Shown here one piece after another: positions 461-17,490 of a DNA stretch of 25,469 bases. How positions within the stretch are numbered: position 1 is the first letter of the stretch; each line of letters opens with the position of its first letter. The DNA comes from a virus: positions 1-25,469 of IMG/VR virus record IMGVR_UViG_3300022752_000355; one strand, given 5' to 3'. Under the pieces are notes generated by a model. That model was not told where the DNA came from, ran no database searches, and saw only the letters and a list, made by a program, of their open reading frames with translations. The translations under genes were made by a program, and so were the position numbers.

Positions 461-838
461 TTAGACATTGACTGGTGCAAACGAGTTTGCAATTTCTAGA
501 TAGTCTGAATAATCACGCTTTTGCTCGGCGGTCAAGCCAGCAGACTTTATCCACGCTGTCTTGCTGATTTTTGACGCATTGGTTTTGAGACCGATAAAGC
601 GACGAATTGTGTGCAGAGTCAACAGAGACTGTCCAAACTTATCCATGAGCATCTTGCCGCGAGTATCTTCGATTAGTTTGATTCGTACCCAGAATTCTGC
701 CGACGATTCCAAAGTAATCTCATTGATTCCCGTATTCATAGTCAAGAAACAGATTGTTTTAAATATGTCGTAATCTGTCTCGTCATTTGCAATTTGTTCC
801 CAGTCTTTGATTGCTGTTGCATCGTAGTTGAGTGACAT
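461..838 (-). CDS. hypothetical protein, mostly helical
   Basis: A 125-residue protein that I do not recognise. It reads as alpha-helical and soluble, with a central basic stretch (HTIRRFIGLKTNASKISKTAW) preceding a Tyr/Asp-rich C terminus; there is no signal peptide, membrane segment or cysteine pair. The start at 836-838 has a purine-rich AGAAAGAGA upstream on the minus strand. It is followed by a perfect hairpin (423-446), so it probably forms its own transcription unit in the leftward region shared with the DUF932 gene. Confidence 0.7.
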   Translation of the reverse strand: MSLNYDATAIKDWEQIANDETDYDIFKTICFLTMNTGINEITLESSAEFWVRIKLIEDTRGKMLMDKFGQSLLTLHTIRRFIGLKTNASKISKTAWIKSAGLTAEQKRDYSDYLEIANSFAPVNV

Positions 839-1333: not shown

Positions 1334-2326
1334 TTAGGAGAGTACCGACTGAACGACAGAGAGTAAACGTGCTTTCTCTGCGTTCTGGCTGTCGGACATT
1401 CCGCTGGCATCCATCAACAGTTGTTCATTGTTGGATTTGCCGGTTTTGCTGTCGAATCGCTGTGTGCGATTCCAGTCGAGCGCGTCGTAAATCCCATTGA
1501 GGGCATACCATGCGTTGCCCGTGGATAGGTTGAAGTCTCCACGGTAGGCGTTCCAAATTCCGTCAACTTTGTTGTCGTATTTGGTTTGTTGTCCTCTGTC
1601 GTTGTCCTCTGGGCGAGGGTAAGCGGCGGCGATGATTTTCGAGAATTCGTTGTCGGTAATCTCACGCTCAAACAGGGTCTGAGCGAGAGCGTCGAATTCA
1701 TCCATGTACGCGCTTGCCATGCCTAGCGTGTCACGCGCCTCCGCGATACGACCGGTCACGCTCTGCGTGTGGCGCATCTTGAATTTGTTAGTCGCGCCCT
1801 TGAGCGCGATTGCCAGAGTGTTTGCGCATACGACCCGAGTGGGGGTCAAAGTCGCAACGAGCGACCCTGTCCCGTCGTAGGATGACGTGACTAGTAAGTA
1901 GGTTTCTACTTTGTCAGCGACTCCAGTAGGGTCAAGAACGGTTGAGCGAGTCATTGACATTGAGCCAAAGACTACCTGTCCACCCTTGAGACTTCCGGCG
2001 GTTTCCCACGTTGTTTCAGGGTCTGCTTCCATGATTCCGTCAGCGAGTGAGAACAATTCTTCATTCGAGACAACTTCGTAACGAGAACGAGCGTGTCCAA
2101 GAATTTCAGGCTGTCCCGTAAACGGATTGTCGCGCACGACGTACCGCATCGGGTCAACCGTTGTCCACCCCTCTGGCAGAATTTCATCGACCATTCGAGG
2201 ATTCCAATTTGCCATGTTTGCGAGTTCCAACATTTCTTGAGTGGTGACAGGCTCAGTAAAGACTGTCCCCAAACCGTGCCATGCCGGTTCGCGGTAACTT
2301 GCAAAACTTTCGATATCTGCGGACAT
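1334..2326 (-). CDS. DUF932 / TIGR03299 phage-plasmid protein
   Basis: A 330-residue soluble protein of the DUF932 family (phage/plasmid-like TIGR03299). The diagnostic start is FASYREPAWHGLGTVF, followed by an EMLELANMANWNPR segment, VRDNPFTGQPEILGHARSRYEVV, and a central strand-rich core around residues 110-180 (YLLVTSSYDGTGSLVATLTP). Length fits the family. Members occur on phages and plasmids; their biochemical role is not settled, and a link to replication or recombination is usually inferred from location. Here it sits between two DnaA-box clusters and inside a pair of inverted repeats, which supports a role at the origin. The ATG at 2324-2326 has an AGAAAGG site 8 nt upstream on the minus strand. 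No terminator is obvious after the stop. Confidence 0.88.
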   Translation of the reverse strand: MSADIESFASYREPAWHGLGTVFTEPVTTQEMLELANMANWNPRMVDEILPEGWTTVDPMRYVVRDNPFTGQPEILGHARSRYEVVSNEELFSLADGIMEADPETTWETAGSLKGGQVVFGSMSMTRSTVLDPTGVADKVETYLLVTSSYDGTGSLVATLTPTRVVCANTLAIALKGATNKFKMRHTQSVTGRIAEARDTLGMASAYMDEFDALAQTLFEREITDNEFSKIIAAAYPRPEDNDRGQQTKYDNKVDGIWNAYRGDFNLSTGNAWYALNGIYDALDWNRTQRFDSKTGKSNNEQLLMDASGMSDSQNAEKARLLSVVQSVLS

Positions 2327-2602: not shown

Positions 2603-2621
2603 ATGGGGGGTGTCCCCCCAT
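2603..2621. repeat. GC-run hairpin with TGT triloop
   Basis: ATGGGGGG (2603-2610), TGT, CCCCCCAT (2614-2621): a perfect 8-bp stem immediately left of the iteron-like array. The sequence before it is also G-rich (GTAGGGGGGAATGGGGGG), so alternative G-rich structures are possible on one strand. Confidence 0.6.
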
Positions 2622-2624
2622 ACT

Positions 2625-2795
2625 ATTGTTCTAGATTATTGTTCTAGAACATATACCTAGAATAAGAGTCTAATTAGAATACTGTTCTAGACTAACTATC
2701 TAGAATGATTGTCTAGACTTTGGTTCTAGTGTCTGATAACAAATAGACTTTGTTTCTAGACATTTGGTCTAATTAGTGATTGGAACAATGTTCCA
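2625..2795. repeat. iteron-like array, consensus ATTGTTCTAGACT
   Basis: The word TTCTAGA or a one- to two-base variant recurs at 2629, 2642, 2656, 2669, 2684, 2699, 2711, 2724, 2754 and 2768, that is at 13-15 bp steps apart from one weak position near 2740. The units preceding the core are also similar (ATTG, ACTG, TGGT). The array ends in TGGAAC-AAT-GTTCCA (2781-2795). Regular short repeats beside DnaA boxes are typical of iteron-controlled plasmid and phage origins. The binding protein is not identifiable from this window. Confidence 0.75.
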
Positions 2796-2857: not shown

Positions 2858-3048
2858 TGGGGATAACCCTGTGCATAACTTTGCCAAAATCCCTGTGTTT
2901 ACGCGGATTTGCCTGTGGAAAACGATTCTAAGCCTTGTGGATAACACGCGGGGCACAATCATATCCCCCAAAGTTATCCACACACTATCCACAGGTGAGA
3001 GCCACTTATCCACAGGTTATACACAGGTTGTCCACAGAGTTATCCACA
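2858..3048. promoter_or_regulatory. DnaA-box cluster 2, helically phased
   Basis: Exact TTATCCACA boxes lie at 2974-2982, 3006-3014 and 3040-3048 on the plus strand and at 2936-2944 on the minus strand. TTATNCACA variants lie at 3017-3025 and (minus) 2870-2878. One-mismatch boxes lie at 2985-2993, 3028-3036, (minus) 2914-2922 and (minus) 2858-2866. The six same-strand boxes start at 2974, 2985, 3006, 3017, 3028 and 3040, spacings of 11, 21, 11, 11 and 12 bp, placing them on one helical face. No dnaA, dnaN or rnpA gene is near, so this is not a host chromosomal origin. Confidence 0.85.
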
Positions 3049-3157
3049 GCACCCCCCACCATTAGACTAAAAGTCTAGAACAATCGCCCCAGATAACATC
3101 CGCGACTACGACCCCAAAGTTGAGGCAGTAGCCAAAAGCGGTGTTTCTCTCTTGGGG

Positions 3158-3172: not shown

Positions 3173-3211
3173 ATAGCTAAATCCTAGCAGAAATGCGGGC
3201 TAAGCCTAAAT

Positions 3212-3234
3212 CGCCCTAGTAGGTGTGTCACAAT
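3212..3234 (+). promoter_or_regulatory. leaderless promoter for 3241 gene
   Basis: CGCCCT (3212-3217), 8 nt, then TGTCACAAT (3226-3234), then exactly 6 nt to the ATG at 3241. Read as an extended -10 (TG-N-CACAAT at -12 to -7), transcription would begin at the A of the start codon. The same module, with identical spacing, precedes the genes at 3693 and 4168. Confidence 0.65.
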
Positions 3235-3240
3235 TGCCCT

Positions 3241-3648
3241 ATGGATAATGATGACTCTTCATTCGAGGAACTCAGCCTAGGTCAGAATATAGCTAGGTGG
3301 CATGAACTGGCTCGAATAGAACGTCGTAGACCTGTTGATTTGTCAAACAAGGAAGACTTGATGGCACACTTGTCGTCTTACCATGGTCACGGCATAAAGT
3401 CGCCTAATCTAAGTAGTTCATACGTAGAACTGCCCTCTCCGGTAGGGTACGTGCTAGACAATACTTCGTACCGACATGGGCTGACCAGAGGATTTTCTCG
3501 TGGTACCCCAGAGTACAACATGGTCATGGAACCCAGCCGCGAGCTAAACCTTACAGAGATGCAGTTCCTTCATGAAAAACTGCATGAAGGCGTCCACAGA
3601 GGAATGGCTCACTACACCGAAGACGGCATCCACCAGCATCTTCAGTAG
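3241..3648 (+). CDS. hypothetical protein, first gene of effector array 1
   Basis: A 135-residue protein that I do not recognise. The N terminus is acidic (MDNDDSSFEELSLGQ), followed by a basic helix around WHELARIERRRPVDLS. It is rich in His and Tyr, with no cysteines, signal peptide or membrane segment. The C-terminal part has ELNLTEMQFLHEKLHEGVHR, an amphipathic helix. An earlier in-frame GTG at 3223 overlaps the promoter box, so the ATG at 3241, exactly 6 nt after TGTCACAAT, is preferred. There is no ribosome binding site, consistent with a leaderless message. It sits at the head of the rightward effector genes. Confidence 0.75.
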   Translation: MDNDDSSFEELSLGQNIARWHELARIERRRPVDLSNKEDLMAHLSSYHGHGIKSPNLSSSYVELPSPVGYVLDNTSYRHGLTRGFSRGTPEYNMVMEPSRELNLTEMQFLHEKLHEGVHRGMAHYTEDGIHQHLQ

Positions 3649-3663
3649 AAGTTAGCCATAGAA

Positions 3664-3686
3664 CGCCCTTACTGTTCTGTCACAAT
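3664..3686 (+). promoter_or_regulatory. leaderless promoter for 3693 gene
   Basis: CGCCCT (3664-3669), 8 nt, TGTCACAAT (3678-3686), 6 nt, ATG at 3693. The architecture is identical to the promoters at 3212 and 4139. Confidence 0.65.
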
Positions 3687-3692
3687 GTAAGT

Positions 3693-4130
3693 ATGTCCGA
3701 AAGCACCCCACTCAGCTCAGAGCAGTTCTTCAAACCTAGAGCTACTACTATGCCTGAGTTTGGTTCTATTAACTATGCCCGTAGGTTGATAAATGGCACT
3801 CAGCCCCCGGCAATGTTCGCTACGGCGCGGGAGATTGTAGCCACTCATGCCTTAGGTGATATCGGGATGCATGTCTATAAACAGGGGGAAGACGGGGAGT
3901 ACGACTATAACCCCATCCTTGATAACGACGAACTCCTTGAGCACAAAGTGAACAATGACCCTGATTTAGCTGAAAACATCCGTGACTACGGGTTTGATTG
4001 GGGACAAGAACACTTTAAAGAAGACCCCGTACGTCTTCGAGACGAGACACTCACGAACGGGCACCACCGTGTAGCGAGCATGCTGAAGTACCGTCCGGAC
4101 GAGTTCCTCCGTATTTATACAGAGCGTTAG
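3693..4130 (+). CDS. ParB-like GHHR-motif protein
   Basis: A 145-residue protein with the ParB/sulfiredoxin-like nucleotide-binding motif NGHHRVASMLKYRPDEFL (from residue 122), preceded by a strand ending in DETL, as in ParB-related phage proteins. In the wider superfamily this pocket binds CTP or ATP, and some members are nucleases; which applies here cannot be told. Residues 40-57 (MFATAREIVATHALGDI) share a motif with the ParB-like proteins at 6420 and 8275, so this is one of a local paralogous family. The start at 3693 is fixed by a leaderless promoter 6 nt upstream. There is no DNA-binding helix-turn-helix, so it is not a partition protein. Confidence 0.75.
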   Translation: MSESTPLSSEQFFKPRATTMPEFGSINYARRLINGTQPPAMFATAREIVATHALGDIGMHVYKQGEDGEYDYNPILDNDELLEHKVNNDPDLAENIRDYGFDWGQEHFKEDPVRLRDETLTNGHHRVASMLKYRPDEFLRIYTER

Positions 4131-4138
4131 TCCTAAAA

Positions 4139-4161
4139 CGCCCTAGCTAATCTGTCACACT
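4139..4161 (+). promoter_or_regulatory. leaderless promoter for 4168 gene
   Basis: CGCCCT (4139-4144), 8 nt, TGTCACACT (4153-4161), 6 nt, ATG at 4168. Third copy of the module; the bases before CGCCCT (CCTAAAA) also resemble the copy at 3212. Confidence 0.65.
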
Positions 4162-4167
4162 AGATAT

Positions 4168-5052
4168 ATGGGTGTAGAAGACAACGTCAGCCAACAGCTT
4201 AAACCGCTGTTTGAAGACCCGCCAGAGTGGTCACTGCCTCAACAGCAGAAAGACGAGGTCTACAAGGCACGTCTCAAGGTCAAGGGTCTGAAAGAAGCAA
4301 AGCCATTGCCCGAAGGGTACAGCACCCATATCGGTGCACCTCAACATCACGTATACGACAATGAAGGCAACTTACGCGGAGGGACGCAGTCCGTCTTTTT
4401 AGCGCACAACGGAGAACAAGTCGGTGAAGTTCGCTGGAACACACTGACTGGTCACGTCAACTGGTTAGGTGTACACCCAGACCACCGAATTATTGGTTTA
4501 CATCACTTGTTGAATGCAGCTCATGAGTGGGCAGCTAAAGAGGGTGGTCTTGGACCTTTTCACTCAGGAAACTTATCGGAGTACAGTGCTTCTCTGATGA
4601 AGCGATTTGTTCCTTCTGCCATCTCCAGTGGTACGTATCTTCCTCCACGTCGACAGCACTCTTACTACGAATCGTCTGTGCATGAAAGTCCTTATGCCGA
4701 TGTCGACCCTCAATCTGAACACGACTTTATGCGGGCTGCAAATACCGCATGCAACATTTTGGATGCAATGCACAGTATCTCCAATGCACAGGAAGTAATT
4801 CATGCACGACACGGGGATTTCATCCCCGTAGACCACCCTGATTTCCGAACAGCAAACCACTTAGCTTCAGTGCGTCTGAGGCTACGCCGAGTCCGTAACG
4901 AAGTGCTTAACAATCACAGCAACTACGACCTTGCTAATGAAGACGGGTACACCCTAGCAGATGAGATAGAGGAACACCCCTCGTATGACCATGTCCACTT
5001 AGAACCACACCTGAAAAACGCTGTCGAGTCCTTGAGAGCAAACGACCAATGA
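4168..5052 (+). CDS. GNAT-like acetyltransferase with helical C-terminal domain
   Basis: A 294-residue protein. Residues about 70-150 have the GNAT pattern: strand VFLAHNGEQVGEVRW, strand HVNWLGVHPDHR, then IIGLHHLLNAAHEWAAKEG as the acetyl-CoA pyrophosphate loop and following helix, although the usual Q/RxxGxG/A loop is degenerate (HRIIGLHH). The target is unknown. Residues about 180-290 form a separate helical domain rich in His and Asn (ANTACNILDAMHSI, TANHLASVRLRLRRVRNEVL), with no recognised family. It has a leaderless start 6 nt after TGTCACACT. The TGA overlaps the ATG of the next gene by 4 nt, indicating translational coupling. Confidence 0.65.
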   Translation: MGVEDNVSQQLKPLFEDPPEWSLPQQQKDEVYKARLKVKGLKEAKPLPEGYSTHIGAPQHHVYDNEGNLRGGTQSVFLAHNGEQVGEVRWNTLTGHVNWLGVHPDHRIIGLHHLLNAAHEWAAKEGGLGPFHSGNLSEYSASLMKRFVPSAISSGTYLPPRRQHSYYESSVHESPYADVDPQSEHDFMRAANTACNILDAMHSISNAQEVIHARHGDFIPVDHPDFRTANHLASVRLRLRRVRNEVLNNHSNYDLANEDGYTLADEIEEHPSYDHVHLEPHLKNAVESLRANDQ

Positions 5053-5258
5053 GTAGACAAGAAGAGTTCTCCAACAGCGCGAATCAACACCGCTTTAATC
5101 TGTTGTACTCAATTAATGGTATGCAAGCCGACCTCGAAAACCAGATACGCAAAATCGGCGTTGCAGGTAATGCTAGTGGCATCCACGGAGATGTTGCACC
5201 CGATGGAGAGATACTGCCCCATAAGAAGGGCAACTTCTCTTATGACCCTCCCGTATAA
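5049..5258 (+). CDS. small tagged protein, MSRQEEF N terminus
   Basis: A 69-residue protein of unknown function. The first seven residues MSRQEEF match the tag-like N termini at 8275 (MGRKEEF), 9193 (MSRQQEL) and the MGRNNxDF set at 16688-18604. It ends LPHKKGNFSYDPPV, and the protein at 9193 has LPHYAGDFSY, so the two share both ends and are probably paralogues. The middle (residues 18-45) is a likely helix. It is translationally coupled to the GNAT gene upstream through an ATGA overlap. Confidence 0.75.
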   Translation: MSRQEEFSNSANQHRFNLLYSINGMQADLENQIRKIGVAGNASGIHGDVAPDGEILPHKKGNFSYDPPV

Positions 5259-8057: not shown

Positions 8058-8249
8058 ATGTCTACTAATGAGCACTTTGACACAGGCTTCTCTGAAGCTC
8101 TGAAGGTGGCTCAACAACAGGCTAACCGCGAAGGGCGCTCCGTCCGTGTCGGTGAGGTGTGGGTAAATCCTTCCTCAGCGTCGCTGGCGAAGCGCCCTCG
8201 CTTTGATAACATCAACAAAGGATTCGCAGAAGGTAAAGCCCTCAAATAA
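8058..8249 (+). CDS. small hypothetical protein
   Basis: A 63-residue hydrophilic protein starting MSTNEHFDTGFSEALKVAQQ. It has one N-terminal amphipathic helix followed by RSVRVGEVWVNPSS, a short strand pair, and a basic end. Family unknown. The ATG lies one base after the membrane-protein stop (TAATATG) with an AAAAGAAG purine tract upstream, so the two genes are probably co-translated. Confidence 0.65.
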   Translation: MSTNEHFDTGFSEALKVAQQQANREGRSVRVGEVWVNPSSASLAKRPRFDNINKGFAEGKALK

Positions 8250-8259
8250 CCGTCAAATT

Positions 8260-8268
8260 AGGCATACT
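8260..8268 (+). promoter_or_regulatory. leaderless promoter candidate for 8275 gene
   Basis: CATACT at 8263-8268 occupies exactly -12 to -7 relative to the ATG at 8275, as in the TGTCATACT promoters at 16557 and 18589, but the preceding bases are AGG rather than TGT. Confidence 0.45.
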
Positions 8269-8274
8269 GGTCTA

Positions 8275-8943
8275 ATGGGACGTAAAGAAGAGTTTTCTAC
8301 GGGAGGAACTCCCCACGTGTACGCGAGGGGAAGTATTCGCCGTCGTTTGCCCGCTACTATGACCCCCAACGAAATTGTTTCACAATATCGGTCTGGCGAC
8401 TTAAGGCATAGAGACAAAGCAGAGCAGGACTCCCTAGGAGAAGAGCGGGGCGGATTAAAGTGGCTAATGGACATCTCCTACCAAGGTGCTCATGGTCGAT
8501 GGAACGGGGCATCGACTTCTCTCGCTGAAAGCATTCAGGAAAAGGGATACGACCCGCAGTACCCAATCGTACTAAACCCCAACCATTCTCAGGGTCCTAC
8601 TATTATTGACGGGCACCACAGACTTGCAGTGATGTTGAAAACAGCCCCCGACACTCCTATCCCCGTAATGTTTACAGACGATGAGATGTACAACCGCACC
8701 ATCGAAGATGAGCCAGAAAAGTTTACTAAACGCAAATTAATGGAGCCAAAACCAAGACCAAATATTTACGCTGGAAACTGTAAAGCTTGTGGTCAAAAAG
8801 TACCAGAAGGAGAAGGCGTGCTTATTAAGGTTCAAGGTCGAGGAAATCCGTTCCACCTATATCATCCCCATCACTTGACCTCAAAACAACGAACTTTGTA
8901 CCCTAAGTACAAATCACGAAAGCAAACTACTGATGGGTCGTAA
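8275..8943 (+). CDS. tagged ParB-like protein with C-terminal CxxC
   Basis: A 222-residue protein beginning MGRKEEFSTGG, a variant of the tag on other effector genes. Residues 26-44 (PATMTPNEIVSQYRSGDL) and the pocket motif DGHHRLAVM (112-120) place it in the same ParB-like family as 3693 and 6420. Downstream, CKAC (169-172) with a His-rich HLYHPHH stretch (194-200) forms a likely small metal site not present in the other two. It starts 6 nt after CATACT with no ribosome site and overlaps the next gene by 11 nt. Confidence 0.75.
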   Translation: MGRKEEFSTGGTPHVYARGSIRRRLPATMTPNEIVSQYRSGDLRHRDKAEQDSLGEERGGLKWLMDISYQGAHGRWNGASTSLAESIQEKGYDPQYPIVLNPNHSQGPTIIDGHHRLAVMLKTAPDTPIPVMFTDDEMYNRTIEDEPEKFTKRKLMEPKPRPNIYAGNCKACGQKVPEGEGVLIKVQGRGNPFHLYHPHHLTSKQRTLYPKYKSRKQTTDGS

Positions 8944-16688: not shown

Positions 16689-16996
16689 TGGGTCGTAATA
16701 ACGCAGACTTTCAAAACCAAGCCCTGTACCACGGGACCAACCATCCCTTTGAAATAGGCGATGTGGTAGTTCCGGGGTTTCACGGTGCCTACGCAACCAC
16801 TGATGCCGGTGTCGCTAGGGCGTACGCTGAGGATAAGGCTATGACAGAAGTATCCCCGGTGAACGAGTATCGAATCCCCAAGGTGTACACGGTAGAACCT
16901 CTCGACCACGATGAAGCGGGTCCTGATAGATACGACACCCCCGGAGTCATCGTAAGTACAAAGGGATTCCGCGTCACAGGTAAGGTAGAAGAGTAA
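16688..16996 (+). CDS. MGRNN-tagged Arr-like ADP-ribosyltransferase-fold protein
   Basis: A 102-residue protein: tag MGRNNADF, then the compact Arr-type fold directly from residue 12. ALYHGTNHPFEIGDVVVPG carries H15 and the GDxxxP turn, GAYATTDAGVARAYAEDKA (33-51) matches the YxTxDxxxAxxYA middle motif, KVYTVEPLD is the VYxVEP strand, and STKGFRVTGKV closes it. Arr enzymes ADP-ribosylate rifampicin, but related folds have other substrates, so drug modification should not be assumed. The tag ends immediately before the domain, suggesting a separable signal. TAATG overlaps at both ends. Confidence 0.75.
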   Translation: MGRNNADFQNQALYHGTNHPFEIGDVVVPGFHGAYATTDAGVARAYAEDKAMTEVSPVNEYRIPKVYTVEPLDHDEAGPDRYDTPGVIVSTKGFRVTGKVEE

Positions 16997-17490
16997 TGGG
17001 TCGTAATAACGCAGACTTCAAAGCTGGGCATGGGCTTACTCAAGCTCAAGCCACTTCGTGGACCCCTAACGAGCTGGACGTGACTCGTGACTTTGACGGA
17101 ACTCCGACAACTGTCGGGATGGTTCCCACCCACGTTGTTGCGCGATACACAGAGTTTGATAGGAACTCCGAGAATCCTGAAAAGGTAAACAGACTCGCTA
17201 AAGATATTGCGGAAAATGGAATCCGAGAACCTCTTCAGATTGACTACCACCACGACACCGGATGGGGAACACTGGTTGAGGGCAACCATCGAGTTGCTGC
17301 CGCTTTGAAGCTTGGCTTGACACATGTCCCGGTTGTTGTTACGGGCGTACTGAGTAGGCGACCTAAGGGTGCGCCTCTCCACTTGTCCGAGGGAGAAATG
17401 CCGACACCTCCCGAGTGGATGACCCACCGTAATCCTCCGTACTTCAAACAGGCTCACCCCTCTGCTTTCCAAGAGTTGGCTGGTCAATAA
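16996..17490 (+). CDS. MGRNN-tagged ParB-like protein
   Basis: A 164-residue protein: tag MGRNNADF, then a classic ParB/Srx core. VPTHVVARYTEFDR (43-56) is the first strand pair, NPEKVNRLAKDIAENGIREPLQI (60-82) is the helix and strand that follow, and VEGNHRVAAALKLGLTHVPVVV (94-115) contains the nucleotide-binding ExxHR signature. This is a more canonical ParB domain than those at 3693, 6420 and 8275, but again without a helix-turn-helix partner. The C-terminal 45 residues are Pro/His-rich and unassigned. TAATG overlaps at both ends. Confidence 0.8.
   Translation: MGRNNADFKAGHGLTQAQATSWTPNELDVTRDFDGTPTTVGMVPTHVVARYTEFDRNSENPEKVNRLAKDIAENGIREPLQIDYHHDTGWGTLVEGNHRVAAALKLGLTHVPVVVTGVLSRRPKGAPLHLSEGEMPTPPEWMTHRNPPYFKQAHPSAFQELAGQ

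Follow-up and report, generated by a model that had tools for sequence, protein, structure and literature searches.

A tandem array of TAGA-N7-TCTA dyads near DnaA boxes in a freshwater actinophage resembles chromosomal operators beside TetR genes

Arrays of short repeats that bind a protein are known from replication origins, partition sites and repressor-controlled regions. In the phage lambda origin, dimers of the O protein bind dyad iterons beside an A+T-rich element, and A+T-rich 13-mer repeats occur in oriC and in plasmid RK2 (PMC5043065). The actinophage RedRock, an example of an extrachromosomal prophage, has two parS sites, each with eight repeats of 8 bp (PMC7157519). The operators and stoperators of Cluster A mycobacteriophages are described as asymmetric, monomer-bound and dispersed over the genome (PMC9283540). 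Here, we describe a repeat array in the IMG/VR virus record IMGVR_UViG_3300022752_000355, the whole of which (25,469 bp) was analyzed and is hereafter called the window.

The source phage is a freshwater actinophage. Its terminase has 597 relatives among the IMG/VR stretches scanned, and shares 88% identity with the terminase of a 94.5-kb contig and 51% with those of Streptomyces phages of 112–116 kb; because these relatives sit in genomes of that size, the window probably represents part of a genome some 100 kb long, about three quarters of which would lie outside it. Leftward genes at 62–247, 461–838 and 1334–2326, the last coding for a DUF932 protein, diverge from rightward genes that begin at 3223, and the main array sits inside the 896-bp gap between DUF932 and the rightward genes. 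A tRNA search and an Rfam search of the window gave no match, and GC skew, read over this 25-kb fragment, has no sharp switch at the array. The features referred to below are as follows:

461–838, minus strand: 125-aa ORF, with some 300 bp between its start codon and the left module (1142–1205)
1142–1205, unstranded: a smaller second module upstream of the leftward gene 461–838, with dyads at 1142, 1155 and 1191
1257–1299, unstranded: second group of DnaA-box-like sites, at 1257, 1269, 1279 and 1291
1334–2326, minus strand: DUF932 gene, with some 300 bp between its start codon and the main array
2603–2621, plus strand: G/C hairpin ATGGGGGGTGTCCCCCCAT bordering the main array on the left
2625–2795, unstranded: main array, ten overlapping dyads TAGA[AC][CT]-N3-[AG][GT]TCTA, 13-bp step, 56-bp super-repeat, 30% GC
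2632, 2645, 2658, 2675, 2688, 2701, 2714, 2744, 2757 and 2781: starts of the dyads in the main array
2670–2677 and again 2769–2776, unstranded: CTAATTAG, a 4-bp phase jump between two 13-bp grids
2781–2795, unstranded: separate dyad TGGAACAATGTTCCA, off the 13-bp grid, no flanking CTAG
2858–3048, minus strand: DnaA-box cluster, boxes at 2858, 2870, 2914 and 2936 (at most one mismatch)
2858–3048, plus strand: the same cluster, boxes at 2974, 2985, 3006, 3017, 3028 and 3040 (at most one mismatch)
3063–3077, unstranded: TAGACTAAAAGTCTA, a perfect dyad standing alone after the DnaA boxes and ahead of the first rightward gene

Two further features of the genes in this phage were seen. The motif CGCCC(C/T)-N8-10-CTGTCACA(C/A)T stands directly ahead of the start codon in many rightward genes, both in the window and in a relative, G002 (window, about 3208–3245, 3664–3695 and 4137–4170; L237, 18394–18430 and 18876–18912); it may serve as a phage promoter for leaderless genes. 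The motif GCAGTAGCC, common to the window and G002 at the junction, was set aside because a 16-base scan returned mostly unrelated coding matches. In addition, many otherwise different ORFs (window 5049, 8203–8943, 8933, 9193, 16688, 16996, 17490, 17831 and 18604; L237:18909) share an N-terminal tag like MGRNNADF or MSRQEEF, which has the look of a signal for sorting or packaging proteins that may be injected. Beyond the tag, these proteins include ADP-ribosyltransferase-like and ParB-N-like domains.

The array is genuine and far above chance expectation. Exact TCTAGA begins at 2630, 2643, 2686, 2699, 2712 and 2755, and CTAG occurs eight times between 2631 and 2756. In 5000 dinucleotide shuffles of 2620–2795 the expected numbers were 0.30 for TCTAGA (six observed), 1.37 for CTAG (eight observed) and 0.009 for pairs of CTAG exactly 13 bp apart (five observed), and none of the shuffles equalled any of these three counts. 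A preliminary description of this DNA had reported at least ten TTCTAGA-like cores at 2625–2795, at steps of 13–15 bp. The cores are indeed there (10–11 with degenerate copies) and regularly spaced, but successive copies within a group stand exactly 13 bp apart; the autocorrelation has maxima at 13 and 56 bp, groups of 13-bp steps being interrupted by 17-bp (13 + 4) jumps to give the 56-bp super-repeat. Besides the two jumps at CTAATTAG, a third lies between 2726 and 2743. Isolated TTCTAGA sites at 494, 9412 and elsewhere were left uncounted, as they fall within coding sequence. The array also folds strongly as a single strand (z −6.8), as any tandem palindrome would, and no convincing σ70 promoter was found to overlap it.

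The likely unit is a 15–17-bp dyad, (C)TAGA[A/C][C/T]-N3-[A/G][G/T]TCTA(G), and not the TTCTAGA core proposed at first: the cores are palindromic, as stated then, but a dyad spanning the spacer also fits the off-grid sites at 1191 and 2781, which keep the dyad and lose CTAG. At 1191, for example, TGGAACGAAGTTCCA retains the inverted halves and the 3-bp centre. The dyad is further favoured because all TAGAACNNNGTTCTA-like sites fall in the two non-coding modules; sites with at most two mismatches number seven in 25.5 kb, against a mean of 1.0 in shuffles, and all seven are inside the modules. Adjacent dyads in the array overlap through common CTAG ends, so that TCTAGA recurs every 13 bp. All 14 units compared have T, G and A at positions 1, 3 and 4 of TAGA, and all have the C and the last A of TCTA; in the main array both half-sites are nearly invariant.

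The two modules are built alike. Read leftward, each has DnaA boxes followed by a GGAAC-N3-GTTCC dyad, then the tandem dyads and, after about 300 bp, a gene start, the left module (1142–1205, with boxes at 1257–1299) preceding 461–838 and the right module preceding DUF932. The related sequence noticed earlier at 1151–1160 is present as GTTCTAGAAC and belongs to two overlapping dyads at 1142–1169. The word TCTAG had also been seen in inverted repeats around the DUF932 gene; it does occur there (1302–1327 and 2395–2421), but within AGAGTCTAGGTGG, a sequence other than the dyad. These flanking sequences form a 27-bp inverted repeat, CAACTAC(A)CAGAGTCTAGGTGG, whose two copies are 93% identical.

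The window has 20 DnaA-box-like sites with at most one mismatch to TTATCCACA, against 5.2 expected, and 14 of them lie in two clusters, ten at 2858–3048 and four at 1257–1299; exact TTATCCACA, on either strand, is found at 2936, 2974, 3006 and 3040. The left group is less sure because part of it doubles as a possible terminator of DUF932: on the minus strand, positions 1254–1280 form a stem with a run of T behind it, which may be an intrinsic terminator. The array had been described as directly beside the DnaA boxes; it is near them but does not touch them, the first box-like site being at 2858. By nearest-neighbour energies no other 60-, 100- or 170-bp stretch of the window is as unstable as the array, a property expected of an unwinding element; the window contains an easily melted, A+T-rich element adjoining a DnaA-box cluster.

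The DUF932 protein had been put forward as the binding partner of the array, and a search for similar arrays beside other DUF932 genes had been suggested as a check. A single-protein scan of viral contigs confirmed no DUF932 relatives; an alignment-based scan then found 80 loci, 69 of them with distinct upstream regions. Neither a TTCTAGA array nor another strong tandem array lies beside DUF932 in any of the 69, although the DUF932 proteins compared are 52–55% identical. In these comparisons DnaA boxes, and not the array, travel with DUF932 promoters, because boxes occur within 400 bp upstream of DUF932 in 20 of the 69 distinct actinophage loci and the array in none. The 27.6 kb upstream of DUF932 holds 33 boxes and the remaining 425 kb of the loci nine, an approximately 56-fold enrichment, and the boxes usually form a pair 11–12 bp apart, about 150–190 bp before the coding match. 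In loci L318–L397 the pairs, about 60–190 bp before DUF932, are often near a CRP-like TGTGA-N6-TCACA dyad.

Close nucleotide relatives of the array were not found in phages or plasmids. Among 2.9 million viral contigs, only two stretches matched the three-site pattern that fits the window; one is a low-complexity repeat and the other, G032 (IMGVR_UViG_3300009184_000217; L407/L507), is an actinophage contig of which 24 kb was available. Other viral TCTAGA arrays (L406, L412, L416, L411 and L020) were set aside as simple tandem repeats with identical spacers, that is, as low complexity. The dyads of G032, TAGACT-N3-[AT][GT]TCTA at 5116, 5129, 5142 and 5212, lie in a divergent gap ahead of rightward genes, and an isolated perfect dyad is found at 8316. 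A single exact DnaA box is present in G032, at 5023, 92 bp from the array. The G032 array is one among several weak stretches rather than the least stable, so low stability is no general property of such arrays. In relatives of G032, whose neighbouring proteins are 66–78% identical, the array is absent and the corresponding gap carries DnaA-box clusters. The array is therefore rare, and is gained or lost independently of DnaA boxes. It is also absent from phages with related terminases; 31 records of such relatives yielded no array and no DUF932 save one marginal fragment, and the four longest had no DnaA clusters. Conservation of the array is accordingly limited to two phages. The binder was sought among proteins common to the window and G032, which comprise only a region of a peptidoglycan-binding/endolysin-type protein and a short acidic protein. 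In the Streptomyces phage GiJojo (L126:29750–30162; L125:1–200), a terminal repeat with a different word, TTTGC/TGCAAAT, is found at the matching divergent junction.

Similar arrays were found in bacterial chromosomes. The pattern TCTAGA-N7-TCTAGA-N7-TCTAGA matched 77 stretches in 84,980 species genomes. Those with near-identical spacers are simple repeats. A TetR-family gene lies within 66 bp of the array centre at 18 of 47 loci with variable spacers, a set that includes several related species and hence fewer than 18 independent lineages, against two of 31 loci with near-identical spacers; eight Pfam-confirmed loci among those counted had supplied the TetR profile, and one of the 18 (L522) came from a mismatch search. 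Pfam confirms TetR_N at individual loci. The TetR-adjacent arrays are from Acidovorax, Erythrobacteraceae, Streptomyces and other actinobacteria (L432, L434, L439, L440, L456, L466, L472, L479, L487, L490, L494, L522 and others, from actinobacteria and proteobacteria), and at further loci, many in Nocardia, a TetR-like gene is 634–730 bp away. At L522, an actinobacterial operator-like TAGAACGATGTTCTA followed by TAGAATAGCGTTCTA lies directly before the TetR gene and matches the window dyad TAGAACAATGTTCTA at all but one base; another array, with five sites, lies operator-like between a TetR gene and an NAD(P)H-binding gene.

The window array has the tandem TAGA-N7-TCTA dyads, 13-bp step and variable spacers of these TetR-type operators. 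It resembles a TetR tandem operator, but we do not claim membership in that class because an adjacent regulator gene was sought and not found; TetR-family genes were found neither in the window nor in 11 related or comparison phage records. From the motif and its chromosomal counterparts we tentatively favour, at somewhat less than even confidence, a cooperative operator through which a dimeric, TetR-like repressor controls the divergent early region. Dimers of such a regulator, or of an equivalent two-fold symmetric helix-turn-helix protein, encoded outside the window or by the host, would bind the 15-bp dyads side by side, sharing CTAG ends and coating about 150 bp; this would shut off or tune leftward DUF932, the lone dyad at 3063 could extend control to the rightward genes, and the smaller copy at 1142–1205 would act likewise on the next leftward gene. 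Since the array melts most easily and adjoins the DnaA-box cluster, an origin firing there, if any, would be expected to come under the control of the bound protein as well. In this scheme the dyads, their spacing, placement and likeness to operators beside TetR genes are observed, and from them we infer the binder, the repression and the effect on replication. The count of more than ten sites, beyond the three to five of chromosomal arrays, speaks against an operator, as do the failure to find a TetR-family gene in the window or the 11 other records, the lack of a convincing overlapping σ70 promoter and the restriction to two phages. The fuller proposal, in which one TetR-like protein array covers the unwinding element at a DnaA-box origin and so silences both early transcription and the start of replication, in a design found in at least two unrelated actinophages, is improbable as a whole.

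The main rival, possible but doubtful, is modelled on phage lambda and takes the array as the part of a phage origin where an initiator binds and/or the DNA unwinds, with host DnaA also acting at the adjacent boxes. The low stability at all three scales, the excess of DnaA boxes, the divergent intergenic position, the single exact box in 24 kb of G032 so close to its array and the box clusters in the matching region of its relatives agree with such an origin, as do the dimer-bound iterons of lambda and the 13-mers of oriC and RK2. Against it, no initiator gene was found in the window, a 13-bp step is out of helical phase, the lone dyads and second module suit a regulator better, the G032 array is not its least stable stretch, and other phages have DnaA clusters without the array, implying separate elements. 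The preliminary description had likened the array to plasmid-origin iterons or a centromere. The findings do support a repeat array that would bind a protein near DnaA boxes, and an origin role is possible, but the details differ: the units are dyads at an out-of-phase step, and the window lacks the helically phased direct repeats and rep gene of an iteron plasmid origin. No typical Rep or ParA gene was found in the 25 kb, as had been stated, and by the features examined the array is neither an iteron-plasmid origin nor a parABS locus.

Two sites flanking DUF932 could instead form a centromere, like parS-L and parS-R of extrachromosomal actinophage prophages. Two repeat loci do bracket one gene, RedRock uses two parS sites (PMC7157519), and ParB-N-like proteins are encoded in the window; but neither a ParA ATPase nor a DNA-binding ParB was found near the repeats in 25 kb, the short ParB-N-like proteins (e.g. 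16996–17490) lack, by inspection, the DNA-binding half of a centromere ParB, and the left site has just three units. As no ParA was seen and the units are overlapping dyads rather than short direct repeats, we regard a centromere as unlikely. Autoregulation by DUF932, the partner first proposed, is less probable still: the array is upstream of the gene and many DUF932 promoters have conserved upstream elements such as DnaA boxes, but the 69 loci and G032, which carries the array with no DUF932 in 24 kb, argue otherwise, and DNA binding is backed by no solved homologue or usable model (structure models were too poor for a fold search, with pLDDT 45 for DUF932 and 35 for 461–838). A decoy, in which many copies of a host TetR operator titrate the host repressor, seems the most improbable of all; actinobacterial TetR operators carry the dyad almost letter for letter and the sites outnumber what an operator needs, but the three-site pattern occurs in only three of 395 genomes of the actinobacterial class searched, and the position in a divergent control region suggests action in cis.

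If the preferred operator reading is true, it offers a concrete regulator site and a testable replication-control model for one member of a very large group of freshwater actinophages, for which we found no description of an origin or repressor. Two recurring patterns could be used to predict regulators: chromosomal operators made of overlapping TAGA-N7-TCTA dyads next to TetR genes, and the association of DUF932 promoters with DnaA boxes. The papers searched, few of them subscription papers, describe neither the tandem TCTAGA operator type nor the DUF932–DnaA link, which is weak evidence of novelty.

Compared with known systems, the window shares with the bacterial oriC and iteron plasmid origins DnaA boxes by A+T-rich repeats and a 13-bp periodicity, but its units are palindromes, not helically phased direct repeats, and it has no Rep or DnaA gene. 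As at the lambda origin, dyad sites for a dimer adjoin easily melted, A+T-rich DNA; lambda, however, has fewer and longer iterons with an initiator gene around them, which was not found in the window. Like RedRock-type parS, two repeat loci flank a gene or operon, whereas RedRock has 8-bp direct repeats with parA and parB (PMC7157519) and no ParA was found here. Many copies of a repressor site (predicted here) are also a trait of the Cluster A mycobacteriophages, but the window sites are symmetric and clustered, unlike the asymmetric, dispersed sites of those phages (PMC9283540). G032 is closer, with TAGACT-N3-AGTCTA dyads likewise at 13-bp steps, an intergenic position before rightward genes, a nearby DnaA box and a lone perfect dyad; it differs in its fewer sites (about five), its preference for the half-site TAGACT, its different phage group and its lack of DUF932 in 24 kb. 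The chromosomal TetR operators have three to five sites and a TetR gene within 66 bp, whereas the phage has ten sites, extra modules and no TetR gene nearby; the two nevertheless share the TAGA-N7-TCTA dyad, the common CTAG, the 13-bp step, the variable spacers and a short distance to the gene start.
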